Origin: Streptomyces sp. NBC_01803
GTDB taxonomy: Bacteria; Actinomycetota; Actinomycetes; Streptomycetales; Streptomycetaceae
Direction: 5' to 3'
NCBI RefSeq assembly: GCF_035917415.1
Contig: NZ_CP109073.1
Location: forward strand, 3,704,501 to 3,768,500
DNA: 64,000 nucleotides
Positions within the stretch are counted from its first letter, which is position 1; every line of letters begins with the position of its first letter. The translations under genes were made by a program, and so were the position numbers. Below the pieces are notes generated by a model. That model had not been told where the DNA came from. It did no database searches and worked only from the letters and a program-made list of their open reading frames with translations. Of the stretch, positions 3,362 to 31,539 are shown in pieces.

Positions 3362-3979
3362 ACGTCGTCCGCAACAGGTCTCGTCCTGCGTTCCGCCACC
3401 GGCGCGCCGTATCGCTTCGATCCCGGCACCCTCTGTCTGGAGCTGCTGCCGACCGGAGGCCCCAGCGCGTTCGCGCGGTACGAGGTGCTGCACGAGCCCG
3501 CTGATCTGGCCGACTGGGCCGGGAGCTCCCGGCTGACGCCGACGCCCGCCGTCGCGGTGTCGCCCGAGGAGCTGGTCGCGGCCAGAGCGCTGCGGGACGC
3601 GCTGTGGCGGCTGGCCTTGGCGCGGGCCGAGGGCGCTCCGGTGACGCCCGCCGACCTCGCCGTCGTGAACGAGGCCGCCGCTCGCCCGGCGCTGGCCCCG
3701 TCGGCCGGCCCGGACGGCGAGCGGGCCTGGGCCGGCCCGCTGACGGGCGAGCGGCTGCTCGCCACGGTCGCGCGGGACGCGGTGGAGCTGTTGACCGGCC
3801 CGTTCCGGGACCGGATCAGGATGTGCTCCGGCGAGAGGTGCCATCTGGTCTATGTGGACACCTCGCGGCCGGGCAGTCGCCGCTGGTGTTCGATGGAGCA
3901 CTGCGGCAACCGCCACAAGGTGCGGGCCTCGCGGGCCCGGGCCCGCCGCTCCGGAGAGCCGGAGGAGGGAAAGGGCTGA
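3359..3979 (+). CDS. CGNR zinc-finger domain protein (ABATE family)
   Basis: This 206-residue protein has the ABATE-type N-terminal domain (FDPGTLCLELLPTGG near residue 20, a putative stress-response ligand domain). It ends with the CGNR zinc finger: MCSGERCHLVYVDTSRPGSRRWCSMEHCGNRHK (about residues 158-190) provides four Cys and the CGNR motif. Family members are considered transcription regulators, often next to the gene they control. It is divergent from the VOC gene, and the shared palindrome is the likely binding site for this protein (inference). The ATG at 3359 is inside the palindrome arm, so a leaderless message is expected. Confidence 0.85.
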   Translation: MTSSATGLVLRSATGAPYRFDPGTLCLELLPTGGPSAFARYEVLHEPADLADWAGSSRLTPTPAVAVSPEELVAARALRDALWRLALARAEGAPVTPADLAVVNEAAARPALAPSAGPDGERAWAGPLTGERLLATVARDAVELLTGPFRDRIRMCSGERCHLVYVDTSRPGSRRWCSMEHCGNRHKVRASRARARRSGEPEEGKG

Positions 3980-10866: not shown

Positions 10867-12101
10867 CGGGGGGCTCCTTCCGGTTCCGGTTCCGAGGCGT
10901 CGGCCGCCGGTGACGTGCGCTCGCGCCAGGGCAGTTCGGCGGTGACGGTGGTCGGGCCGCCGGGTGGTGAGTGGACGGCGAGCAGGCCGTCGACGGCGGC
11001 GAGTCGTTCGGCGAGTCCGGCGAGGCCGGAGCCGGCGGTGGCGTCGGCGCCGCCCCGGCCGTCGTCCATGACCTGGAGCATCAACCGGGTCTCCGTCCGC
11101 CAGACGTCGACGGAGGCGTGCGCGGCGCCGGAGTGCTTGCTGACGTTCTGCAGCAGCTCGGAGGCGGTGAAGTACGCGATGCCCTCGATGGCCGGGGCCG
11201 GCCGGGCGGCCGTCTCGACCGTGACCCGGACCGGCACGGTGCAGCGGGAGGCGACGGCGGACAGCGCCGGGCCCAGGCCCCGGTCGGTCAGGATCGCCGG
11301 ATGGATGCCCCGGGCCAGATCCCGCAGCTCCCGCAACGCGAGCTTCACCTCGCCGTGCGCCTCGTCCACCATCCGGGCCGCCGCCGCCGGATCCTCGGTG
11401 AGCTTCTCCTTCGCCATCCCCAGCCCCATCGCCAGCGCCACCAGCCGCGCCTGCGCCCCGTCATGCAGATCCCGCTCGATCCGCCGCAGATCCGCGCTGG
11501 CCGTGTCGGTCACCGTCACACGGTCCGACTCCAGCTCCGCGATGCGCCGCTCCAACTCGTCGGAGGGCGACAGCAGGCCGCGCACCAGCGCCCGGTCCAC
11601 GTTGGTCATCCAGCGCGCCAGCCACGGCAGCGCGGGCCAGGCGACGAACAGCGCGGCGCATGTCACCCAGCAGGTCAGCGTCGTCCATGGCAGCCGCACC
11701 ACGAAGAACAGCGCGGTGCGCCACCCGACCGGATCCTTCAGTCCCGCCCACACCCAGCCGAAGAAGCCGGCGCCGCGCCGCGCGCCGCTCAGCGGGCTCG
11801 GCTCGTCGATGCGGAGCTTCAGCAGCGCCCTGGCCCGGGCTCGCTCCCAGGCGCCGAAGCGGCGGCAGCCGAGCAGGCCGAGGGCCAGCACCGGCAGGCC
11901 GATCACCGTCACCGAGAGCAGCACCCCGGCGTAGATCCACGCCAGCACGTAGCAGAACGCGATCAGATCGAGCGGCCAGCTCGACAGCAAGTACCCGCAC
12001 TCCCGCCACGTCTGCGCGCCCAGGGGGGCGCGCGGCGGTGGCAGCGGCGCGGGGGCCTCGGCGCTCGCGCCGGTCCCGGGGGCGGTGATGGTGCTGGTCA
12101 T
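10863..12101 (-). CDS. Sensor histidine kinase (HisKA_3), first of a tandem pair
   Basis: This 412-residue kinase has the same layout as the next gene: hydrophobic sensor helices (about residues 35-75 and 120-165), then [16 protein letters not shown] with His213, and a HATPase domain with [12 protein letters not shown] and [22 protein letters not shown]. Its N-terminus is Pro/Ala-rich ([12 protein letters not shown]). It is the first gene of the operon kinase-kinase-regulator, and its start lies 174 bp from the divergent nuoA start. Duplication of a kinase with one regulator suggests two inputs, or a heterodimer, acting on the same regulator (inference). Confidence 0.92.
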
Positions 12102-20227: not shown

Positions 20228-21756
20228 ACCTCGTCCAGACCGTCGAGTGGGCGGTCATCGCGCCGCCGGTGATCGCCGCCGTCGCCGCGGTGGCGGTGCT
20301 CGTCGCCGACCTGTTCCTGCCCGCCGCCCGCAAGGCCCTGCTCGGCTGGGGCGCGGCGGCGGCGCTGGCGCTGGCCGCGTTCGCCCTGCTGCCGCTGCGG
20401 GACGGAGACCGGACCACGTTCTGCCTGCCGGACGATCCGGAGCTGTGCAGCTATGTGGCGGACCGGTTCGCCGTGACCGTCCAGCTCCTGGTGCTCGGCG
20501 GCGCCTTCCTGGCCGCGCTGCTGTCCATCCCGGAGACCGAGGACGGCGAGATGCCGGGCGGGGAGTTCTGGTTCCTGCTGCTGTCCTCGGCGGCCGGCGC
20601 CGCGCTGCTGCCCGCCGCCCGCGACCTGGCGACGCTGATCATCGCCCTGGAGGTCACCACCCTCCCGGCGTACGCGCTGGTGGGGCTGCGGCGCGGCGGC
20701 GGCGCCGGGCCCGAGGCGGCGCTGAAGTTCTTCCTGTCCTCCGTCACCGCCACGGCCGTCGGGCTGCTCGGCGTCAGCTTCGTCTACGCGGGCTCCGGCA
20801 GTCTCTACCTCGACGGGATCGCGGCGGGCCTGCCGGACGCCGATCCCCGGCTCGCCACGCTCGCCGAGGCCGGGGTGGCGCTGACCCTGGTCGCCTTCGC
20901 CTTCAAGACGGCGGCGGTGCCGTTCCACTTCTGGGTGCCCGAGACCTACGTCGGCGCCCCGCTGCCGGTGGCCGGCTACCTGTCGGTGGTCGGCAAGACG
21001 GCGGGCATCGCCGGGCTGATCCTCGTCACCACCGGCGCCTTCCCCGGCTACGGGGACCTGTGGGGGCCGGTGACAGGCGTGCTGGCCGGGCTCACCATGA
21101 CGGCGGGCAACGTCGCCGCGCTGCGCACCGATCCGGAGGCCCCGCACAGCGCGGTCCGGCTGCTGGCCTGGTCCTCGATCGGGCAGGCGGGCTATCTGCT
21201 GGTCCCGGTCGCCGCGGCGGCGTACGCGACGGACACCATCGGCACCGCCGTGGCGTACGCCCTGATGTACGGCGTGGTGAACCTCGGCGCGTTCGCCGTG
21301 GCCGCGCACGTCGCGCGGCAGCGGTCCGCGCACCGGCTCGCGGACTACCGGGGGTTGTACGCCCGGCAGCCGGCCGCCGCCCTCGCCCTGGCCTTCTTCC
21401 TGCTCTGCCTGGCCGGGCTGCCGCCGGGCGTCATCGGGCTCTTCGCGAAGGTGGCGGTCTTCGAGACGGCCGTCGACGCCGACCTCGGCGTGCTGGCGGT
21501 GGTGATGGCGGTCAACGTGGTCATCGCCCTGTACTACTACCTGCGCTGGACGGCGTACCTGTTCCAGCGGCCCGCCGCGGACGGGGCCGCGGTTTCCGAG
21601 CCCGCCGCGGACGGGGCCGCGGTTTCCGAGCCCGCAGCCGCCCGGTGGCCCGCCGTGCCCCTGACCGGCGCGATCGGCCTCGCCGCGCTCACCGGAGTGG
21701 TGCTGTCGGGAGCCCCGCAGATCATTCTCACGTTCGCCTCGGGAACGCTTTTCTAG
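20224..21756 (+). CDS. nuoN: NADH-quinone oxidoreductase-like subunit N (antiporter-like)
   Basis: This 510-residue third antiporter-like subunit closes the operon. The landmarks are ATLIIALEVTTLPAYALVGL (Glu), AFAFKTAAVPFHFWVPETYVGAPLPVAGYLSVVGKTAG (Lys) and WSSIGQAGYLLVPVA. Near the C-terminus, between the last two helices, an exact 30-bp tandem duplication encodes the decapeptide PAADGAAVSE twice (about residues 450-469). The loop is cytoplasmic or periplasmic and not part of the proton path, so the protein should remain functional. Confidence 0.94.
   Translation: MNLVQTVEWAVIAPPVIAAVAAVAVLVADLFLPAARKALLGWGAAAALALAAFALLPLRDGDRTTFCLPDDPELCSYVADRFAVTVQLLVLGGAFLAALLSIPETEDGEMPGGEFWFLLLSSAAGAALLPAARDLATLIIALEVTTLPAYALVGLRRGGGAGPEAALKFFLSSVTATAVGLLGVSFVYAGSGSLYLDGIAAGLPDADPRLATLAEAGVALTLVAFAFKTAAVPFHFWVPETYVGAPLPVAGYLSVVGKTAGIAGLILVTTGAFPGYGDLWGPVTGVLAGLTMTAGNVAALRTDPEAPHSAVRLLAWSSIGQAGYLLVPVAAAAYATDTIGTAVAYALMYGVVNLGAFAVAAHVARQRSAHRLADYRGLYARQPAAALALAFFLLCLAGLPPGVIGLFAKVAVFETAVDADLGVLAVVMAVNVVIALYYYLRWTAYLFQRPAADGAAVSEPAADGAAVSEPAAARWPAVPLTGAIGLAALTGVVLSGAPQIILTFASGTLF
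21571..21630 (+). repeat. Perfect 30-bp tandem duplication in nuoN
   Basis: Two identical 30-base units (21571-21600 and 21601-21630), each beginning CCCGCCGCGG and ending GGTTTCCGAG, lie head to tail. They encode PAADGAAVSE twice in frame. Perfect identity suggests a recent duplication. Confidence 0.98.
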
Positions 21757-22803: not shown

Positions 22804-22974
22804 GTGAAGACACTTCTGAATCTCCTATGGCTGATCTTCTCGGGCCTGTGGATAGCCCTGGGCTATGCCGTGGCCGGGCTGATCTGCTTCGTCCTGATCG
22901 TCACCATCCCCTTCCGGATCGCTCACCCGGTAGCAGCATCAACCGGGGATCGATTTTCCCCTCGATACGCATAG
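22804..22974 (+). pseudogene. yccF: yccF 5' part, interrupted by the integrated element
   Basis: From GTG 22804, 37 codons encode the N-terminal half of a YccF-domain membrane protein (KTLLNLLWLIFSGLWIALGY, then AVAGLICFVLIVTIPF). At 22914 the reading enters the mobile element and ends 19 codons later at TAG 22972-22974. The missing half (31249-31539) joins exactly in frame at the TTC core. The intact protein would have 133 residues, the normal YccF size, with motifs VTIPFGIACF and IIGIPFGIAHFK repeated. Function of YccF is unknown; it is an inner-membrane protein family. Confidence 0.9.
22900..22930. other. attL: left junction of the element
   Basis: The host half ends ATCACCATCCCC-like (GTCACCATCCCC) and the element half begins CGGATCGCTCACCCGG, with the shared core TTC at 22912-22914. 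The core is placed between the two positions where the left and right junctions differ (CCC versus CCG before it, C versus G after it). This gives the crossover to within three bases. Confidence 0.8.
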
Positions 22975-24883
22975 GAGGAGAAGCCACGCCGACGGGTACA
23001 GGGACGCGGGGAACATCGGTCAGAAGAGAGTCAATCCGGGCCCACGTACCGTCTGCGGACCACCGCTTGAAGTGGTAATTCGCGGTGGTCTGAGTTGCCC
23101 CGCATGCCGCCCTTACGGCGTGCCAGGGCTCACCCGTCCGGGCCTTGTACAGCAGAGCATCAATTGTCCGGCGAAGGATGGCGGGGCGTCCGCCGGACAG
23201 CAGGGGCGCAATCAATTCCCATTGGTCGTCTGTCAGCCCTTCGGCAGGAATGTCACGCTGCATCGACGTGTACCAACCCCGGATGGAGCAGGGGGCACCG
23301 CCTTTTCCCATTCCGGCGGGACCTTCGAGATAGACCTTCAGGTCAATCAGCTCCGCGAACTCGGATTGCTCCTGAAGAGTCATGCTTCCCAAGTGGTCAT
23401 GCGCCATTCTCGCAAGCGCCTTGAGGTCTTTTGCCCTCCTGTCTGCATCCTCTTGCTCGGCAAGCCAGTCAGCGGCCTCTTTGCGCATGCCCTGCAACTG
23501 GGCCAGTTCATCAGTCAGCGTCTTTGTCGCCTCATGAATGTAATCCTCCGGCGCATCCTCGCCCCTTGCGATCGCTTCCTTTGCCGCCATAGCCATCACA
23601 GCGGAAATTGCCTTTCGCTGAGCGTCGATCTGCCGATCAAGCTCAGCTACCCTTTCGATCGATGCGGTGGAATTCCCCACTGTCATACCAAGCCACTCGG
23701 AGGCGAGTTCTTCAAGCTGTGCAGGATTACCGAGAACCTTCACTAGCTCTTGCCATACCGGAACTTCAATGGCTTCAGCACTCACGTACGAAGGAGCGCA
23801 GTTGCACGTCTCTTCGCCAGGAATTTGAGCCAACTTCCCTGTGCAACGGTAGAAGCGCTGCTTACCCCCTCGGGTGTGCCCCGTTAGCGGAGATTCGCAC
23901 AACGAGATAACTCGCCCCGAAAGCGGAAAGCATCCGTCGCTACCTTCCTGGACAGTCGACTTCTTGTTCTTTCTGACAACTCGCTGCATCGCTGCCGCCT
24001 GTTCTTCGGTCAGAATCCGAGGCAACTTGATGGTGACGGACTCGCCGAATAGGAGATTTCCGTCGTTGTCCCTCTTAGCATTGTCCCCTCGGAAGACGAT
24101 TGCCCCTTCGAGCACCGCGCGGGACATAATCCGATCGCGGACATTGGCGTATGACCACAATTTGCCCCGACGGGAGAGTTTTCCTTCTGCGTTGAGTCTG
24201 GCAGCACATTGGCGGAGGGTCAGTCGTTCGCTGCCCACCATCCATCCATAAACCTGGAGAATGACGGCCGACTCCGACTCGTCAATGACCAGGTAGGAAC
24301 CCCTCTCCCCTTTGTGTTCCACCCGGTAACCGAAGGGAGGCGGACCCCCAATGTGTGGCGATCCGTCATCGAGTGCTTTCTCCTGTAGCCCTCCCTGTGT
24401 GCGACTCCGGATCTTCTCCCACTCCCTTTCAGCGTAGTCAGCCTGACTACGCATCTCAGAGCGACCGTCCGGAGTGGTGTTGTCGATATCGCCATCCGCA
24501 ATGGCGACGAAAATTCCGAGATCTTCCAAGGCCCAGACCCAGCGCCAGAAAGCGCGCCCCGTGCGTCCGATGGCCCGGCCTTCTTTCACCACGACCACAT
24601 CGAATGCGTGAGCGCGAGCGTTCTCCATCAACCGCTTAAGGTCGTCCCGATCCTCGGCCTCAAGGCTGCCGCTTACGCCGTCGTCGGTGTAAGTATCCAC
24701 GTGCTTCCAGGATTTCTTCGCGATGTAGCCGCGAGTCTTCTTCCCCTGGCTTGCGACGCCGTAGCCCTTTTTCTGCTCCTCCGTCGAAACGCGAAGGTAG
24801 TCCACCGCCCGCAGGACACGGACTGGCGTCATCTTGGCCACCGCCTGGACGGGGGCAGGGGCGGGTGTGGTTTTATAGGCCAT
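22901..24883 (-). CDS. int: Large serine integrase with transposase-like C-terminal domain
   Basis: This 660-residue site-specific recombinase should integrate and excise the element. The N-terminal resolvase domain has the nucleophile Ser33 in YLRVSTEEQ and GVSGSLEAEDRDDLKRLM, VVVVKEGRAIGRTGRAFW. The recombinase domain (IGGPPPFGYR, then LRQCAARLNAEG) follows, then a degenerate zinc ribbon (YRCTG, CNC; the first CxxC is reduced to LCES), a coiled coil (about residues 420-520) and, at about 575-640, a domain like the N-terminus of IS5-type transposases (LTDDQWELIAPLLSGGRPA). The last six residues and stop are encoded across attL in host DNA. The ATG at 24883 has GGGAGC upstream. Confidence 0.92.
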   Translation of the reverse strand: MAYKTTPAPAPVQAVAKMTPVRVLRAVDYLRVSTEEQKKGYGVASQGKKTRGYIAKKSWKHVDTYTDDGVSGSLEAEDRDDLKRLMENARAHAFDVVVVKEGRAIGRTGRAFWRWVWALEDLGIFVAIADGDIDNTTPDGRSEMRSQADYAEREWEKIRSRTQGGLQEKALDDGSPHIGGPPPFGYRVEHKGERGSYLVIDESESAVILQVYGWMVGSERLTLRQCAARLNAEGKLSRRGKLWSYANVRDRIMSRAVLEGAIVFRGDNAKRDNDGNLLFGESVTIKLPRILTEEQAAAMQRVVRKNKKSTVQEGSDGCFPLSGRVISLCESPLTGHTRGGKQRFYRCTGKLAQIPGEETCNCAPSYVSAEAIEVPVWQELVKVLGNPAQLEELASEWLGMTVGNSTASIERVAELDRQIDAQRKAISAVMAMAAKEAIARGEDAPEDYIHEATKTLTDELAQLQGMRKEAADWLAEQEDADRRAKDLKALARMAHDHLGSMTLQEQSEFAELIDLKVYLEGPAGMGKGGAPCSIRGWYTSMQRDIPAEGLTDDQWELIAPLLSGGRPAILRRTIDALLYKARTGEPWHAVRAACGATQTTANYHFKRWSADGTWARIDSLLTDVPRVPVPVGVASPPMRIEGKIDPRLMLLPGERSGRGW

Positions 24884-25224
24884 GTCGGCTCCCAAGCAGT
24901 CGGCCAGCCCCGGGGCGGTTGCCGCCGCCGCCGGGGCACGTTGTGTTCCGTAGAGCATACGCCATCGCCGGACGCCCTGTCAGGAGCCGATAACTCACTT
25001 TCGTCACTAGTCCTGTGACGGAATAGCAGGCGTAGCAACCACTCCCGCTCCGCGCGAGTGAAGCTGATATCAGTCCGCCAGATGACACGAACGGTCGCTT
25101 CCGGGCGGGCAATATCCTGCTTCGGGCTCATGTCCTCGGTTTCCTTTCTGGCTTCCATGACTGGTTCTTGTTCTTCGCGAGTGTTAGCCGGATCTGCGGC
25201 AGAGAATTCGTGATGTTCGGCCAT
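24829..25224 (-). CDS. Small protein upstream of the integrase, unknown function
   Basis: This 131-residue ORF starts at ATG 25224 with GGAGGA six bases upstream; a second ATG two codons earlier is less well placed. The N-terminal half is acidic (FSAADPANTREEQEPVMEA), the middle has a predicted basic helix (RTDISFTRAEREWLLRLLFRHR), and the C-terminus is Arg/Pro/Trp-rich. The last 55 bp overlap the integrase start in another frame, so the two are likely co-transcribed. I do not recognise the family. The position next to int is where recombination directionality factors are often found, which is only a positional hint. Confidence 0.6.
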   Translation of the reverse strand: MAEHHEFSAADPANTREEQEPVMEARKETEDMSPKQDIARPEATVRVIWRTDISFTRAEREWLLRLLFRHRTSDESELSAPDRASGDGVCSTEHNVPRRRRQPPRGWPTAWEPTWPIKPHPPLPPSRRWPR

Positions 25225-25259
25225 AGGCATTCCTCCCTCTGTGGATTTCGGTCCTTCCC

Positions 25260-25295
25260 GGTCCCGCCCCGGGGCGATCACCCCGGGGCGGGACC
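25260..25295. terminator. 15-bp-stem hairpin between tra and the int operon
   Basis: A perfect inverted repeat has arms GGTCCCGCCCCGGGG and CCCCGGGGCGGGACC and a 6-base loop CGATCA. It lies downstream of tra and upstream of the small gene and int on the minus strand. No T-run follows on either strand. It could be a terminator, an attenuator in front of int, or part of a transfer site. Confidence 0.55.
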
Positions 25296-25311
25296 TGTCA
25301 CGGTTACTCGT

Positions 25312-25347
25312 TGTGCTCGTCCACGTCCACGTCCATGGATGAGCACG
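25312..25347. repeat. Second hairpin with CGTCCA repeats
   Basis: The arms GTGCTCGTCCA and TGGATGAGCAC pair with one G.U; the loop holds two further CGTCCA copies, giving three direct CGTCCA repeats. Together with the adjacent hairpin it makes the 169-bp tra/int gap unusually structured. Confidence 0.5.
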
Positions 25348-25393
25348 GGCCCTACGCGCGCAGGCGCGTGCGAGCCGTCTGGACGTTCGGCGG

Positions 25394-27343
25394 TTACTGT
25401 GTGTCGCGGTTCGGGGGCCGCAGTCGGCGGCGCGCTCGCCGGGCGCGGCGTGTCCGGGTCGGCCCGGCCGGACCCGGGCCGCTCTCGCGCCCCTGGTCGT
25501 CGGCGGCGCGCCAACGGCCGCGAGCGAGCTGCACCGCGCGGCCTGCGTCGGCATGCTCCCGCAGCCGGTAGTAGACCCAGCTCCGCCCCATGCCCGACGC
25601 TGACATGAGCCCGTCCACCGAAGCCCCGCCCGCACCGGCGCGGCGCAGCGCCGCCCACAAGGCCGCTTCCGGAGCCACGGGCGCCCGTGTGGCGCTGGTA
25701 CCGGCCGCGCCCTCCCCGGGCCTCTGAGGCGTGCTCAGTGCCTCGGACGGGGCGACGGCGGGTGCGGGCAGTCGCGGGCGCCTGGCACCGTGGTCGGTGA
25801 CATGCCGGATGACAGCGTCATCGGTGACTTCCCAGGCGCGTGCCCGGTCGGCGTTCGGGTGTTCGGGGCCGGATATCAGGAAACTCCCGGGAAGGGTGAG
25901 CGCGTCGGCGTTCCAGCCCTGTTTGGAGAATCCCTGCCCCAGGATCAGGTCAGCGTCACGGCGTTCCCGCACCCGCAGGCATATGCGGATATCCATCTGT
26001 GTCCGTGTGGCGCCTCCCATCGTTTTCTGTGTCGGCCGCTGTGTCGCGACAATCAGGGTCACGGCCACCGCCCGCCCCCGCCGTGCGATCGAATCGGCGT
26101 ATTCGCGTGCCTCTTCCGGTAGTTCGGCGTATTCGTCGATCACGATGACGAGTGCCGGATGGCCGGGGGCCGGTTCCCAGACACGGCGCCCCTGCGTGGT
26201 GAGGATGCGGGCGCGGCGTTCCAGTTCCGCGACTCCGTTCCGCAGGAGTTCCGTTGCTTGTTTCCCGGTCGTGGCGAGCCGTCCGAGGCATGGTTTCCAT
26301 GGGGAGAGTTCCATTCCTTCCTTGAGGTCGATTCCCCAGACCACCGCATCGCGGCAGGCCGCGAGTGCGCCGAGGATGACATTCACGATGCCCGACTTTC
26401 CCGAGCCGACCACACCGCCTACGAGGACATGGCGGCGCAGGAAGGAGACGGCCACTTCGCGGGCATCCTCGAAAAGGCCCAGAATGATTGGCCTGTTGAT
26501 GCTCGCCGCAGCCGGGGCGGGCCATGCGAGGGGTTCTGCGTGCGGGTCTCTTTCGACTACTCGCATAACGCACCGGTCGGCCCTCCTGGCGTCGGGAAGG
26601 ATCCGCACCGATCCGGCACGCATACCGAGTGCCGATTCGATCGACGGTATCCGGCCGACCGCATCCGTTACGGTGCTCCCTTTCCTCAGCCTGAGCCGTG
26701 CCGAGAATCCCCACGCATCGGCGACTGCCGAGGCGATCCGGGATCCGGGAAGGCCCATGCTTTCCGCCAGAGTCGGCCAGTCGGCCGTGATCCGCTCCAC
26801 ACGGACACGGGCGCGCCGCCGACGATGCAGCCACCACGGAATACCGCACACCGCGATTCCCGCCAGCCACACGGCTGGAAGCGGCCGGGTATACGGGCCC
26901 ATGGAGATAGCCAGCGCCGACCACCCGCCGACTACGACCACCACAACGGCGCCGTACGCCCGCTCCGTCGGCCGGTCCATTCCGCAGGCCGACCACGTCC
27001 GCGCCAATACCGTTGCGACGCGCACACCGGCAGGGCTCCTCTTCAGAACCGTGTGCGGAATACCCAGAGCCACGCCTATGACGACCGTGGCCACGATCAG
27101 GGAAACCCACGCATGCGGGTAGCGGACGTGCGCGACAGCGGATGCGAGAAACGCGATTCCCGCGAGGGATACCGGGGCGAGTGCCGACCGGTGGCGCCAC
27201 ACGAACCGGCTCAGTATTCCCAGCATAGCCACGAATACCGGTTCGCTGTTCACGAGCATGAAACCGACCGTGTCGCGGTCGCGTCGCCACGCGCGCCGCT
27301 GTCGGCGGAATTGCCTTGGGTTCGGATGCCTCAAATACGTCAC
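25394..27343 (-). CDS. FtsK/SpoIIIE-type conjugative transfer ATPase (Tra)
   Basis: This 649-residue protein is the DNA translocase expected to move the element as double-stranded DNA between mycelia. It has an N-terminal membrane region with about four helices (residues 25-160), a Walker A motif GGVVGSGKSG near residue 310, IDLKEGMELSPW, Walker B in LVIVIDEYAEL near residue 400 and the sensor VATQRPTQKTMGG. A winged-helix domain at about 560-615 (GGASVDGLMSASGMGRSWVYYRL) fits the part that TraB proteins use to read 8-bp transfer repeats. GTG at 27343 is chosen: it has GGGAAAGG upstream and overlaps the stop of the preceding gene by 4 bp. Confidence 0.88.
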   Translation of the reverse strand: MTYLRHPNPRQFRRQRRAWRRDRDTVGFMLVNSEPVFVAMLGILSRFVWRHRSALAPVSLAGIAFLASAVAHVRYPHAWVSLIVATVVIGVALGIPHTVLKRSPAGVRVATVLARTWSACGMDRPTERAYGAVVVVVVGGWSALAISMGPYTRPLPAVWLAGIAVCGIPWWLHRRRRARVRVERITADWPTLAESMGLPGSRIASAVADAWGFSARLRLRKGSTVTDAVGRIPSIESALGMRAGSVRILPDARRADRCVMRVVERDPHAEPLAWPAPAAASINRPIILGLFEDAREVAVSFLRRHVLVGGVVGSGKSGIVNVILGALAACRDAVVWGIDLKEGMELSPWKPCLGRLATTGKQATELLRNGVAELERRARILTTQGRRVWEPAPGHPALVIVIDEYAELPEEAREYADSIARRGRAVAVTLIVATQRPTQKTMGGATRTQMDIRICLRVRERRDADLILGQGFSKQGWNADALTLPGSFLISGPEHPNADRARAWEVTDDAVIRHVTDHGARRPRLPAPAVAPSEALSTPQRPGEGAAGTSATRAPVAPEAALWAALRRAGAGGASVDGLMSASGMGRSWVYYRLREHADAGRAVQLARGRWRAADDQGRESGPGPAGPTRTRRARRARRRLRPPNRDTQ

Positions 27344-27696
27344 CGCCTTTCCCGGTGAGGCGCTGAGTTCCGCTGTGCGGTGTACTCGTCCCGCAGGAAC
27401 CACAACGGGTCATGCTCCCCGTCGGCAGCGGCGGAAAGAGCCGCACGGATCGCCGCCCGCAGATTCGCGGCCGACTCCCGCGCTTCGGCCAACTGATCGG
27501 CCATACGACGGTTTTCGATGGCGTACCGCGCGGAATCGACGGTACGCGCGGAGAAATGCAGGAGCAGAGCCAGCCCGTCGGCCTGGCACCGGCCGCAGTG
27601 GTTCACCCGTTCCAGCGCACCCCATGCGTTGTTGATGGCCTCCAGGTCTATTTCCACGCGCGGCAGAAGCCGAGCGAATTCATCGTTGATTGTCAA
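27340..27696 (-). CDS. Small transfer-region protein, TTG start, unknown function
   Basis: This 118-residue protein reads (L/M)TINDEFARLLPRVEIDLEAINNAWG, then ERVNHCGRCQADGLALLLHF, then a long helix ENRRMADQLAEARESAANLRAAIRAAL and WFLRDEYTAQ. The CGRC pair may bind metal. The start is set by a strong AAAGGAGG eleven bases before a TTG at 27696; the longer reading from 27792 would bury that site inside the gene. The 3' end overlaps tra by 4 bp, so it belongs to the transfer operon. I know similar small ORFs upstream of tra in Streptomyces elements but no proven function. Confidence 0.7.
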   Translation of the reverse strand: MTINDEFARLLPRVEIDLEAINNAWGALERVNHCGRCQADGLALLLHFSARTVDSARYAIENRRMADQLAEARESAANLRAAIRAALSAAADGEHDPLWFLRDEYTAQRNSAPHRERR

Positions 27697-27738
27697 ATGT
27701 GTGACGACCTCCTTTGATCGGGATCTACTTACTTTTCC

Positions 27739-27787
27739 GGTATCCGCGTCCCGCGCGCACCTTGCGCGCGGGACGCCCTTGGATACC
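27739..27787. promoter_or_regulatory. Long two-part stem-loop inside the transfer operon
   Basis: An inner perfect 14-bp stem (GCGTCCCGCGCGCA / TGCGCGCGGGACGC, loop 3 bases) is enclosed by an outer 7-bp stem (GGTATCC / GGATACC). It fills the gap between the 63-residue membrane-protein gene and the TTG-start gene. There is no U-run on the minus strand. It could be an attenuator, a processing site or a DNA site for transfer. Confidence 0.6.
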
Positions 27788-27809
27788 GTCATGTCACGAC
27801 CTCACCGGG

Positions 27810-28001
27810 TCACCCTTGGCCCTGGATCACGTCGAAGAGGCCACTCATCGCCTCCGAAATCGGGCCCGCCATGCTGGATGACGCCAGGTAGAAACCCAGC
27901 ACCACACACACGGCGGCATGGGAAATCCGCAGCCCCGCATACCGGCACAGCACGAATACCAGCACGCTGAGTATGCCGACGACCGACAGATTCACTGTCA
28001 A
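27810..28001 (-). CDS. Small two-helix membrane protein, Spd-like, TTG start
   Basis: This 63-residue protein has two hydrophobic stretches: VVGILSVLVFVLCRYAG and AAVCVVLGFYLASSSMAG. A short amphipathic C-terminus follows (SEAMSGLFDVIQGQG). Tiny membrane proteins of this kind lie upstream of tra in actinomycete elements and are thought to help plasmid spread (Spd proteins). The start is TTG at 28001 with GGGAGGTGAG upstream; a GTG two codons later is the alternative but is farther from the ribosome-binding site. Confidence 0.65.
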   Translation of the reverse strand: MTVNLSVVGILSVLVFVLCRYAGLRISHAAVCVVLGFYLASSSMAGPISEAMSGLFDVIQGQG

Positions 28002-28054
28002 AAAGTTCTCACCTCCCTACACCTACAGATATCTGGATACGGGCCGAGTTACGG

Positions 28055-28204
28055 CTACCGGCCCGGCCGGAAACCGCGACCGGACTTCCGCCGCGACCAG
28101 CGCGCACGCCGCGTGCACTTGGTACACACGTCACCCGCATCCGTCGCCATCGCGCCACAGGCGCACCGACGTCCCGTACGGCACTCCCTAACTCCGCTTA
28201 ACAG
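28055..28204 (-). CDS. Candidate tiny zinc-ribbon protein, CTG start
   Basis: A 49-codon reading frame contains RRCACGAMATDAGDVCTKC, a CxC...CxxC zinc-ribbon pattern, then a strongly basic tail (RRARWSRRKSGRGFRPGR). No ATG, GTG or TTG precedes the first Cys pair after the upstream stop; CTG at 28204 lies nine bases after GGGGAGG. If the ATG at 28150 is used instead, the protein has 31 residues and loses the first Cys pair. The ribosome-binding layout parallels the two neighbouring TTG-start genes. Function unknown; a transfer-region protein is the contextual guess. Confidence 0.4.
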   Translation of the reverse strand: MLSGVRECRTGRRCACGAMATDAGDVCTKCTRRARWSRRKSGRGFRPGR

Positions 28205-28313
28205 TGCTGCTCACCTCCCCAAACCTCAGAGATCACAACCTTTCTGAAAAGCCGTTACGCACAGCACAACGGCCCCGGTACACTGAGTACCGGGTGACCG
28301 TTGCGTCTCCCAG

Positions 28314-28359
28314 CCGCGCCGCCCTAACGGTTTCCAGCCCCAGGGGCGGCGCGGTTTTT
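28314..28359 (+). terminator. Intrinsic terminator on the plus strand
   Basis: A perfect 10-bp GC stem (CCGCGCCGCC / GGCGGCGCGG) with a 21-base loop is followed directly by TTTTT on the plus strand. No plus-strand gene ends here. It lies in the gap between the HATPase gene and the transfer operon, both on the minus strand. It may end an unannotated plus-strand RNA starting somewhere after about 28200. Confidence 0.6.
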
Positions 28360-28432
28360 GAGTTATGGAGTCCGGAGCTATCTCCTCCTTTCCCCGGGAC
28401 TCTTTCCCGGGAAGTTTCCGGTTGTTTCTCGG

Positions 28433-28939
28433 CTACTGGTTCCACATGGCGCGGCAGTTCACCAAGGCCCACACCATTTGTCCGACGTACCGTTTTTTCT
28501 CGACCACGTGGACCGCGCCCCAGTCAGTTGATAGTCCATTTAGAAGCAGTCGGCCATATTTGCTTTTGGGCGTGTTTTCCGGACTGGCCGGACGCCGGCG
28601 GTTGGGGTTTCTGTCGAATACCTCTATCGCCACCCCTAAACTGACCGGCCGTAATGTCAGCGTCAGTGTTGCTATGGCAGCTAATTCGGCGTAGGTGGGC
28701 GGCTGTTCGCTTGCGTAGGATTCGCGCACCGCGTCGGCGATCAACTCGGACGTGACGAGTCGCGCGTCATTGATCTTTGATGGACCCACACCCCATGACA
28801 CGAGCACGCTTTGGGTCTGAAGGCGCGCGATGCCCAAGGCCGTGGGTACGGCTGCCAATTGCAGGGGAATGGGTGGCGGAAGGGGCCGATGCCCCGCGCG
28901 GACAGACGCCGGAATACCGCCGCCCGCACCTCTGGTCAT
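28433..28939 (-). CDS. HATPase-type ATP-binding protein (anti-sigma-like), altered N-box
   Basis: This 168-residue protein resembles the short ATP-binding regulatory proteins common in Streptomyces (RsbW/SpoIIAB-like fold): ARLVTSELIADAVRESY stands at the N-box, AIEVFDRNPNRRRP at the G1 box and GRLLLNGLSTDWGAVHV at the G2 region. The N-box Asn that coordinates Mg in this fold is replaced by Asp, so ATP binding may be weak or changed. The ATG at 28939 overlaps the preceding gene by 4 bp (ATGA). It is the last gene of a three-gene operon divergent from the HTH regulator. Partner unknown. Confidence 0.72.
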   Translation of the reverse strand: MTRGAGGGIPASVRAGHRPLPPPIPLQLAAVPTALGIARLQTQSVLVSWGVGPSKINDARLVTSELIADAVRESYASEQPPTYAELAAIATLTLTLRPVSLGVAIEVFDRNPNRRRPASPENTPKSKYGRLLLNGLSTDWGAVHVVEKKRYVGQMVWALVNCRAMWNQ

Positions 28940-29244
28940 AGTGGATGATCACCCCCTCTCTTCTCCAAGTCGTAGTAGGGGTTACCGGGGGCGGGAAGGA
29001 CGATCCAGAAACATTCCATCGTGGACCGGTACCGGCGATGATCCGGATTCGCGCCTGTGTGTTTCAGCGTCCACATTTCCACCGGCAGTGACTCGTTGTT
29101 CGCCGCCTCGGACTCCGCACCGCAATCCACACACGCGACACGGAAGATTGTTCGTGGCGCGTCCTCGTCGCCGATCTCGGTGAGAGCGGAGTTTGCTTGG
29201 AACAATTGCCACTCAGCGGCCTTGATGATCGTCCGGCGGATCAC
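28936..29244 (-). CDS. Conserved small protein (DUF7848-like), unknown function
   Basis: This 102-residue protein has a CVDCGAES zinc-knuckle-like pair (about residues 38-45) and the pattern [20 protein letters not shown], then [20 protein letters not shown]. This recalls the Streptomyces DUF7848-type proteins found beside HTH/HATPase genes; the family assignment is from memory. It overlaps both neighbours by 4 bp (ATGA at each end), so the three are translated as a coupled unit. No enzyme motif is visible. Confidence 0.65.
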
Positions 29245-29459
29245 TCCGCACCTCCGCGCGCAACGGCGGCGCCGCTGTTACTGATCACCCGCACGTCACC
29301 AGGAGTTGCGTCCCACTCACGGCCACCGGTCAGCGGGCGCAGCCACACTCGCCCGCCCTGATAGTCCATGACACGGCCGACATCGCCACGGACATCCCGC
29401 ACGACCGCCCCAGGCTCGGGCCGAGCACCCGCCTTCTGCCTCTCCGATTCACGCTGCAT
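29241..29459 (-). CDS. Conserved small basic protein, unknown function
   Basis: This 72-residue protein has the pattern [46 protein letters not shown], a small beta-barrel-like module frequently seen next to HTH/HATPase genes in Streptomyces. ATG 29459 is preferred because homologues start close to it. A GTG at 29501 would add 14 residues but lies in the inverted-repeat operator. It leads a three-gene unit that ends with the HATPase protein. Function is unknown. Confidence 0.6.
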
Positions 29460-29496
29460 ACCACGACAGTGACGCGCGGATCTCTCCACGGGATCC

Positions 29497-29553
29497 CCCA
29501 CGTTGGGGGCCTCATCGTGGGGCCCCCAACGTGGGTAGACTTCCGAACGTGGG
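29497..29553. promoter_or_regulatory. Inverted-repeat operator with an extra half-site
   Basis: The perfect arms CCCACGTTGGGGGCC (29497-29511) and GGCCCCCAACGTGGG (29521-29535) are separated by 9 bases. A third AACGTGGG half-site lies at 29546-29553. The element sits between the divergent HATPase operon and the HTH regulator, so it is probably bound by that regulator to control both directions. Confidence 0.75.
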
Positions 29554-29600
29554 TCTTGTGGTACTCCTTGAAGAGATCGCGATCAATGCGGGGACGCAGA

Positions 29601-30971
29601 ATGATCAACAAACCCCCGGCGGCTCTGCCGCCCACCGTGCTGGAACGAGCTGACGTACGTAGTGCACTTGCGCACTACGATTTCGGCGAGCTATTCCGTC
29701 TAGCCAATAAGTATGGTGGCATCAGTTTCAAGAGAATTGGGGATGCGATCGGTGTTGATTCAAATCGGGTAAGCAAGTATGCCCATCGCACGCCGCCCGA
29801 TCCTCCGTACCAGCCCTCATACAAGAAAGTCGTTGAGATCGCCGATGGTTTGCGGATTCCCGGTTACCTACTGGCGTTGGGCCCCCGCCCCTGGGAAAGC
29901 GATAGAGCCGAACGGGATAAGGTTGGGGTCGATCGGCCCATTGCCAGCCTTCCCAGTGCGCGGCAAGCTGATAGAAGTTTCACTCTTGCCGCAGAGCACG
30001 GCCCCTGGGAGGTAATGGAGTTGGCCCGCCGACTAAATGCTACCGACATTAGTCCTGGTGACATGGACACCATTACGCTCGTGATTGACAGGTTGTGCCG
30101 ATCGTACCCGTACATGCCTGCCGAGAAGCTTCACGAGGAGACGCGAACGGGAATTCGCTACGTCACGGACTTGCTGAATGGGCGTACCACGCTAAAACAG
30201 CACCGAGAGCTTTTGGTGTCGGCAGGGTGGCTTTTCCTTCTCGGCGGCTGCCTCGAATATGACATGGGACAGCGGGAAGCCGCTGACCTCAGCCGGGCGA
30301 CGGCATTCCGAATTGGGCAGGAGTCCGGGCATAGTGAGATCGTGGCCTGGTCGTTTGAACTCGGAGCATGGTTCTCTCTGACGCAAGGTCAATACTCCGA
30401 GGCGCTCGACTCCGTGGAGTCCGGACACCGAGCGGATTCTACACACAGCGTCGGCGTGCAGCTTTATGCACAATCGGCAAAATCATATGCGCGGGTCGGA
30501 AATGCTCGCCAAGTCCGCGACGCCCTGGACGCGGGGCGAGCCCGGTTGGAACGTTTGCCGAGACCCGAACACCGAGAGCACCATTTCGTAATCGATCCTG
30601 AAAAGTGGGATTTCTACGAAATGGACGCTTACCGCATGCTGGGAGACGACGACCGGGCTTCAACTCACGCCAACGAGGTGATCAGACTCAGTACTGCGCC
30701 TGACGGCACCGAAGCGTCTCCGATGCGGGTGGCTGAGGCGCGCCTCACGCTGGGAGTAGCGGCGGCGCGTGCGGGTGAGCTTGAAGAGGCAGTAGCCATA
30801 GGTGAAAGGGCGCTCCAAACGCCGAGGAAGTCACTGCCCTCGCTTCTCCTGGTAGCCGGAGAACTTAGCGATGAACTTGTGAAGCGGTATCCGCGTGAAG
30901 CACTCACCCAGGATTTCCGGAACCACCTCCGCGAGTTGGTCGCAACAGCGCGTCCCGAATTGGAGGCGTGA
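29601..30971 (+). CDS. HTH regulator with TPR-like C-terminal region
   Basis: This 456-residue protein begins with a helix-turn-helix (GGISFKRIGDAIGVDSNRVSKYAHR, about residues 39-63). A long helical region built of TPR-like pairs follows (for example GWLFLLGGCLEYDMGQREAADLSRATAFRIGQ and VAEARLTLGVAAARAGELEEAVAIGERAL). Such XRE/TPR regulators often sense small peptides or other ligands and act as element repressors. ATG 29601 has GGGGAC at good spacing; ATG 29586 is an alternative. It is divergent from the HATPase operon with an inverted-repeat operator between. The AT-richer codon use differs from the flanking chromosome. Confidence 0.82.
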   Translation: MINKPPAALPPTVLERADVRSALAHYDFGELFRLANKYGGISFKRIGDAIGVDSNRVSKYAHRTPPDPPYQPSYKKVVEIADGLRIPGYLLALGPRPWESDRAERDKVGVDRPIASLPSARQADRSFTLAAEHGPWEVMELARRLNATDISPGDMDTITLVIDRLCRSYPYMPAEKLHEETRTGIRYVTDLLNGRTTLKQHRELLVSAGWLFLLGGCLEYDMGQREAADLSRATAFRIGQESGHSEIVAWSFELGAWFSLTQGQYSEALDSVESGHRADSTHSVGVQLYAQSAKSYARVGNARQVRDALDAGRARLERLPRPEHREHHFVIDPEKWDFYEMDAYRMLGDDDRASTHANEVIRLSTAPDGTEASPMRVAEARLTLGVAAARAGELEEAVAIGERALQTPRKSLPSLLLVAGELSDELVKRYPREALTQDFRNHLRELVATARPELEA

Positions 30972-31068
30972 GCGCTGAGCGGCGCCGTAACGATGGCGTC
31001 TCGGTGACTGTCGGAGTCCCCTTCCACGCAGCGCTGAGAGCCGCTGTGGGGCTCGCACACGCATGCGT

Positions 31069-31104
31069 GAGGCTCTGGCTCCCTCCGGAGGGAGCCAGAG
31101 CCTC
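31069..31104. terminator. 36-bp perfect palindrome after the HTH gene
   Basis: The arms GAGGCTCTGGCTCCCTCC and GGAGGGAGCCAGAGCCTC are exact reverse complements with no spacer. The palindrome begins 97 bp after the regulator stop, between it and the right end of the element. It would form an extended hairpin in RNA from either strand and is most likely a bidirectional terminator insulating the element from yccF. Confidence 0.75.
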
Positions 31105-31224
31105 AGGGGGTCTGGTGCCGGGCGTGGCGCGATCGGGACCACAGGCGCCCGCGTCGGGCGTGTCCTCAGGTCAGCGCCTACGCCAACGCGAAGCGGAACC
31201 TGATCACGGCGCTGGGACGATCCT

Positions 31225-31262
31225 GCTCGCCGGATCCCGATCCCGTTCGGTATCGCCTGCTT
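31225..31262. other. attR: right junction of the element
   Basis: The element half ends GCCGGATCCCGATCCCG and the host half begins GGTATCGCCTGCTTC, with the core TTC at 31246-31248. Fusing the attL host half to this host half recreates an uninterrupted yccF frame (VTIPFGIACF). Fusing the two element halves gives attP, whose centre reads GATCCCG-TTC-CGGATC, roughly symmetrical as expected for a serine integrase. Confidence 0.8.
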
Positions 31263-31539
31263 CCGCATCGCGGGCTACGCGCTGTGGCCCTTCGGCTACA
31301 CGGTCACCGAGCGCCGGGACGCGGGCGTGGCGTCCGGGGTGGGCAATGTGATCTGGCTCATTGTCGCCGGGATCTGGATCACTATCGGCCACATCGTGGC
31401 CGGGATCGCCTTCTGCGTGACGATCATCGGCATCCCGTTCGGCATCGCGCACTTCAAGATGGTGCCGGTCTCGCTGATGCCGCTGGGCCGCGAGGTCGTG
31501 CCGACCAGCGATCCGTACCCCCGGTACCGCTGGTCCTAG
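31246..31539 (+). pseudogene. yccF: yccF 3' part, cut off from its start
   Basis: From the TTC core the frame reads FGIACFRIAGYALWPFGYTV, then two hydrophobic helices (VIWLIVAGIWITIGHIVAGIAF) and the second YccF motif IIGIPFGIAHFKMVPVSLMPLG, ending at TAG 31537-31539. An internal ATG at 31327 could produce a 70-residue fragment, but there is no clear ribosome-binding site. The stop overlaps the end of the convergent DedA gene by 4 bp. Excision would restore the full gene. Confidence 0.9.

Follow-up and report, generated by a model that had tools for sequence, protein, structure and literature searches.

A separate directionality factor is the main explanation given for the direction in which a serine integrase works. 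In the SSV1-type integrases of archaeal viruses, attP is located inside the integrase gene (int), and integration splits the gene in two parts. A different gene is cut in the systems of integration-dependent immunity, which have been found in mycobacteriophage BPs, in clusters G, I, N and P, and in Gordonia, M. abscessus and Bifidobacterium relatives. According to the available portions of the reports on these phages, attP lies in the repressor ORF, with a host-provided stop codon at or near attL, and the viral repressor is longer by about 18-35 residues at its C-terminus, an extension that often ends in -AA and is stripped on integration (PMC4557955, PMC8092301, PMC9934374, PMC6109161). The same portions describe that the viral repressor of BPs is degraded and its integrase has a proteolysis signal, and that in many immunity phages the integrase also ends in -AA, some systems having no -AA tag.

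Here we describe an integrated element in a window of 64,000 nucleotides (the whole stretch of DNA analysed) from Streptomyces sp. NBC_01803, in which attP falls inside the gene of a serine integrase. An earlier note on this DNA had likened the locus to phages in which integration cuts the repressor. The comparison is apt, and among known systems integration-dependent immunity comes nearest in logic: in both cases attP is inside an ORF that has a long and a short form, with C-termini that depend on the state. However, the immunity systems split a repressor and their integrase, where the available portions of the reports name it, is of the tyrosine type, whereas the window element splits the serine integrase itself; moreover, the conserved part in the family of the window is an [IL]xFx[hydrophobic] motif, unlike in the immunity repressors. 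As integration here cuts int rather than a repressor, the element is not regarded as a member of integration-dependent immunity. SSV1-type enzymes differ in turn as tyrosine recombinases, whereas the serine integrase of the window exchanges only a short tail and keeps its Int domains. The Streptomyces phages phiJoe and SV1 share with the window the enzyme class, a short core and targets in the host chromosome, but the accessible parts of their descriptions place attP 18 bp upstream of int in phiJoe and downstream of int in SV1, and the phiJoe integrase, ending in ...DDFAETF, lacks the motif of the window family. Finally, actinomycete integrative and conjugative elements with serine integrases resemble the 8.3-kb window element in combining int with a TraB/FtsK-like translocase. 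The portions of the literature on these elements that were available to us hold no mention of a split-int arrangement, and in the open-access literature searched, as far as its accessible text goes, no description was found of a serine integrase gene that contains attP and exchanges its tail.

The two ends of the integrase gene

The genome carrying the window is a single contig of 5.85 Mb. The features of the locus, in window coordinates, are the following:

22804..22914, plus strand: 5′ half of the gene targeted in the host (yccF by eye)
22901..24958, minus strand: int, a large serine integrase with Resolvase, Recombinase and zinc-ribbon domains, all above Pfam cut-offs
22901..22914, minus strand: end of int in the integrated state (...RGW, stop), made of the core plus host DNA
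22912..22914: attL crossover core, TTC on the plus strand and GAA on the int strand
22915..31248: integrated element of about 8.3 kb, one core copy counted
25394..27403, minus strand: TraB/FtsK-like DNA translocase, an AICE-type transfer gene (Pfam)
29469..30971, plus strand: TPR-containing ORF of the element, with an N-terminal HTH-like stretch seen by eye and no Pfam call for it
31178..31246, minus strand: orphaned free-form int tail TGSGSGEQDRPSAVIRFRFALA plus TAG, the predicted int C-terminus in the circle
31240..31539, plus strand: 3′ half of the same host gene
31246..31248: attR crossover core, TTC on the plus strand

The borders of the element are taken to be right because joining both flanks at the shared TTC restores one unbroken host ORF of 133 aa. 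The gap-free alignment of attL (GCGATCCGGAAGGGGATGG) and attR (GCGATACCGAACGGGATCG) centres on GAA, a very short crossover core, as for large serine integrases. The translocase scored above the cut-off for FtsK_SpoIIIE and reached 151 bits with the NCBIfam TraB model, below its cut-off of 800 bits, and no replication protein was found among the six element ORFs scanned.

The C-terminal domain of the integrase corresponds to DUF4096 (Pfam), as in IS5-type transposases; a full-length alignment suggests that this region is common to the relatives and to R4-like phage integrases, the domains themselves having been scanned in the window integrase. Its listed 5′ end (24883-24958) is probably too long, the true start probably being the ATG at 24883, at residue 26, since many relatives show an in-frame stop before the homologous ATG (LAD*LGVDM, the asterisk being the stop); the residues upstream still align.

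On the minus strand, int ends as GGT GAG CGA TCC GGA AGG GGA TGG TGA, its stop codon (22901-22903) lying inside the host yccF half. The claims that int crosses attL to end in host DNA as ...GERSGRGW, and that in the circle it runs on through attP to IRFRFALA, are both borne out: read across attP, the frame gives ...GERSG followed by TGSGSGEQDRPSAVIRFRFALA and a stop, versus ...GERSG-RGW and a stop when integrated. The tail lengths of 6 and about 24 residues given in the earlier note have to be corrected to 3 and 22 after the shared SG. An open frame in the window alone is no evidence, because 66% of the positions along the element, read on the int strand, give 21 open codons, and conservation was therefore sought in relatives.

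Free-form tails in related elements

A scan of genome contigs yielded 24 related loci (19 in Streptomyces, 2 in Kitasatospora and 3 in other actinobacteria; L numbers are our handles for loci), a search of the genus matched 36 of 392 genomes at E <= 1e-60, and scans of IMG/VR gave 6, 21 and 16 loci. Of the 23 relatives translated, 12 have an int whose end lies in yccF-like host DNA. Tails were read in 25 elements, the window included, which fall into six target groups: yccF (12), dprA (7), mpaB-like (2), PNKP-like (1), acyl-CoA-synthetase-like (2) and a free phage (1). Targets were named by eye, except dprA, which was assigned through PF02481 in the genome of the window plus matches to the PF02481 protein. 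The 25 elements are kin and their events are not independent, the six target groups being the fairer number. In seven of the 25 (L010, L013, L016, L017, L023, L045 and L047), attL and attR are on separate contigs and their pairing is inferred. Outside the tail counts are L005, L007, L008, L011, L024-L026, L034, L036, L039, L040, L042, L046, L049-L054, L056 and L057, as well as L028, excluded for its interrupted int. The L028 gene is broken by an apparent IS5-type insertion, and its attR tail still has the motif.

The DNA upstream of eleven integrases was scanned for the motif. At 2-40 kb upstream, the strict pattern gave two matches on the int strand and none on the opposite strand, one of them unrelated to att, so that L043 provided the only att-linked match and is the only one of the 25 elements located via the motif itself. 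Four more (L033, L038, L047 and L048) were read via the host gene, and for the other six (L034, L036, L039, L050, L051 and L052) no tail was read. A looser scan of the upstream slices proved unspecific, with 5 matches on the int strand versus 4 on the opposite one, and was discarded.

Sister elements keep the frame open across attP, as the earlier note had asked, in 24 of the 25, window included; the remaining one, L048, has a frameshift in int ahead of the site, and its open tail comes from the host frame alone. The observation that the earlier note named as refuting its reading, a related integrase with a stop ahead of the crossover, was made in one relative, L011, against these 24 open tails. 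The L011 integrase stops before the att position (11900-12055), with no yccF half at the int end, as would be expected if the borders had been misplaced or the element were degenerate, the true int ending earlier and the tail being an accident of the window copy. With an empty site that gives an intact ORF and a pair of phage contigs, L059 and L060, whose crossover falls inside int, such an explanation is hardly credible. L011 also shows a yccF copy just upstream of int.

The other half of yccF was present as a remnant in 11 of the 15 genomes searched. All 12 yccF tails are open, with a stop 2-3 residues past the motif: IRFRFALA (window), IRFKLSL (L006), LRFRLKA (L009 and L012), LRFRMNA (L010), LRFRLKV (L013), LRFHLNA (L014), LRFRLEV (L015), LRFRLDA (L016), LRFRLHT (L017), LRFRLNA (L018) and LRFRLRT (L019). 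The core of L006 is CA, not GAA, and the host side of attR is rearranged in L018. The attR of L005 was not readable, and L007 and L008 showed no yccF half at the int end.

Integrases at genes other than yccF are 38-44% identical to that of the window and have the same arrangement. In 7 of 7 genomes searched, dprA is split and its C-terminal half is fused in frame to int, the tails being IRFRVAIAA (L021-L023), IRFRLAIAA (L041 and L044), IRFRLDHAA (L020) and IRFRMELV (L045). The mpaB-like target gave IRFRMELAA in L043, where the motif led to the tail and the split host gene then served as a check, and IRFQITLVA in L038, an element of about 47 kb read via the host gene, as was IPFRIMVAA in L033 at the PNKP-like target. 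At the acyl-CoA-synthetase-like target, the tails are IPFQMRLGA in L047 and ISFLMTVAA in L048, an element of about 100 kb. An apparent frameshift of the L048 int is found around position 3500, shortly before the att site; the idea of arbitrary integrated tails, based on a single host gene being read in one frame by L047 and in another by L048, was withdrawn on account of it.

A motif [IL]xFx[LMFVI], typically LRFRL or IRFRL and located 2-4 residues before the stop, occurs in 24 of the 25 tails, the sole exception being the free phage L059 (RLHLRI). The narrower pattern [ILV][RP]F[RKHQ][LMFVI] is present in 23 of 25 and, among the first 23 tails, in 22; 2000 shuffles of the residues gave 0.04 matches on average and at most 2. 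The motif starts 13 residues into the tail in the yccF clade, 11 in six of the seven dprA tails (7 in L045), and 4-8 in the mpaB, PNKP and acyl-CoA synthetase groups.

Constraint was assessed in 11 yccF-clade tails of equal length, the window tail being one codon longer. Over the five motif codons, mean dN is 0.14 and mean dS 0.89, with dN>dS in 0 of 52 defined pairs, versus 50 of 55 pairs when the same stretch is read one base off frame (-1). The last ten codons show 186, 81 and 261 differences at codon positions 1, 2 and 3, and the first ten 151, 183 and 182, with dN>dS in 25 of 51 defined pairs. A uniform constraint over all twenty tail codons was ruled out, as dN>dS in 9 of 50 defined pairs. 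By these substitution patterns, the distal motif of the yccF clade is under protein constraint and the linker is not.

The overlap could also be neutral, attP being kept in int for compactness and the conserved bases belonging to an attP arm or a promoter, with the peptide as an incidental product. Chance open frames are indeed common (the 66% noted above), the first ten codons lack protein constraint, and in the mpaB, PNKP and acyl-CoA synthetase groups a constraint on the DNA may apply, because there the motif, some 12-40 bp from the crossover, lies within the usual attP of 40-50 bp. However, the motif of the yccF clade is found about 40-57 bp past the core and changes mainly synonymously, its R-F codons vary (AGGTTC, CGGTTC, CGCTTC, AGATTC, CGTTTT), and it recurs at unrelated target genes, all of which makes a neutral overlap quite improbable.

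The predicted integrase thus has two C-termini depending on the state, and its free-form tail, to judge from the comparison of relatives, is real and selected, being stripped by integration. Both states are seen in a single metagenomic phage: the IMG/VR contigs L059 and L060 share 7,029 identical bases and then split after CCATCCCGAA, inside int. In L059 int ends in ...AEPSRTEWFPHSQDVRPRLHLRIDRESAQLRTVLTAA and close to 10 kb of other ORFs come after it, for which reason this contig is taken as the free form; in L060 it ends in ...AEPSRRRWSPVG and the contig enters a rarD-like gene (named by eye), as in an integrated form.

Integrated forms of int are fused in frame to 3′ parts of host genes in L020-L023, L033, L035, L037, L041, L044, L045, L047, L050 and L061. 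The partners are DprA and, by eye, PNKP, acyl-CoA synthetase and an MFS transporter, which would yield Int-host fusion proteins. The tail given by the host past the matched int spans at least 499 residues in L033, 442 in L050 and 131-143 in the dprA group.

Possible roles of the tail

Conservation was seen for the free tail only, the integrated one being whatever the host offers, three residues in the case of the window. Together with the same layout in related elements at other chromosomal sites, this suggests that the tail marks the free versus the inserted state. On balance, we favour the reading that the tail would be a state label acting on the protein, which would limit the integrase of free circles and leave the integrated copy tail-less. 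In the geometry shown by the sequences, attP sits inside the 3′ end of int, and the circle encodes the long form of the protein, with a linker of about 4-14 residues, the [IL]-x-F-x-hydrophobic motif and 2-4 further residues often ending in Ala or Ala-Ala. Integration cuts int at the crossover, leaving the peptide at attR, and the host gene provides a new tail. The tail on circle-made integrase would most likely lower its amount or its integration activity, for example by proteolysis, and the limit would act after a burst of expression, so that a freshly excised element would avoid prompt re-integration. The tail-less integrase of the integrated copy would be kept for excision with the directionality factor. 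The long in-frame host fusions in several groups would be odd, however, if a clean tail-less form were needed. Under the state label, a turnover tag and a structural or directional strand are held to be equally plausible, each somewhat short of an even chance, and any other role is rather unlikely.

The tail could act mainly as an ssrA-like degron that is lost on integration, as in integration-dependent immunity. The ends of the tails are consistent with this possibility outside the yccF clade, where 10 of 13 finish in -AA and one more in LVA, and the tmRNA tag of the host, ANSQRDSFSLAA, ends in SLAA. But none of the 12 yccF-clade tails ends in -AA, that of the window ending in ALA, and conservation falls on a core ahead of the final residues. 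In the earlier note the hydrophobic ALA end was a possible degradation signal, a proposal that gains from the -AA ends at the other targets and loses in its own clade, where the other ends are KA, NA, DA, KV, EV, HT, RT and SL and the conserved part is RFR-L. A degron deduced from the ALA of the window alone was consequently dropped as the main claim, and by analogy with the immunity phages a mainly degron-like tail can be entertained only tentatively.

Alternatively, the tail would be an ordinary C-terminal strand of the working integrase, with attP inside the gene by happenstance. Such a strand would pair perhaps near the base of the zinc-ribbon and coiled coil, and its loss would weaken integration or alter the response to the directionality factor. 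The strongest conservation does fall in the strand-like [IL]xFx[hydrophobic] and not in the final residues, and AlphaFold2 predicted a beta strand at the tail of L058 (residues 659-663) and L078 (657-662), two virus contigs taken to be free forms, with low confidence (pLDDT about 41-61 and 41-46, respectively); as a whole, both models match the integrases of Bxb1, SPbeta and phiC31. Similar ends without -AA are also present among the R4-like Streptomyces phage integrases, where, in 37 rows, some from the same contig, 26 end in ...F[ET]FEI..., 2 in ILFAQM... and 4 in R[IM]QIACV..., 3 are truncated and 2 come from prophage contigs. The integrases of these two prophages, L086 and L095, align with that of phage Triumph no further than residue 650 of 667, and their tails differ; the right ends of both prophages were searched for and not recovered. 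Apart from the low model confidence at the tail, a plain strand has to cope with a truncated form that must still excise, and it leaves unexplained the -AA ends, which occur in one or more members of five of the six target groups. It is a serious possibility, if one slightly short of even.

With the tail as a state label, a family of serine integrases from actinobacteria, carried by phages and by smaller or conjugative elements with several targets, could have evolved into self-reporting recombinases. The recombination that each enzyme performs would edit its own C-terminus, removing the conserved tail, and so set its stability or direction according to the free or integrated state, a proposal to which we give an even chance. 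If true, a tail gained and lost through recombination would be a second, built-in layer of directionality, and a separate sensor would be unneeded. For tool building, the int annotated in an integrated element differs from that of the circle, and a clone of attL would carry another C-terminus. Searches for attP confined to the intergenic DNA by int would miss such sites; one study of a Streptomyces phage, in its available portion, sought attP in the intergenic DNA next to int (PMC10276819).

Two further observations concern the surroundings of these elements. In an ORF upstream of the window element, a 30-bp unit is present in two identical head-to-tail copies (21571-21630). The window element has no yccF copy at its right end, and in 11 of 12 yccF-inserted elements a yccF copy without stops lies just inside that end, adjoining attR (L069-L074, L076, L077, L012, L014 and L015), which looks like a replacement for the broken gene.
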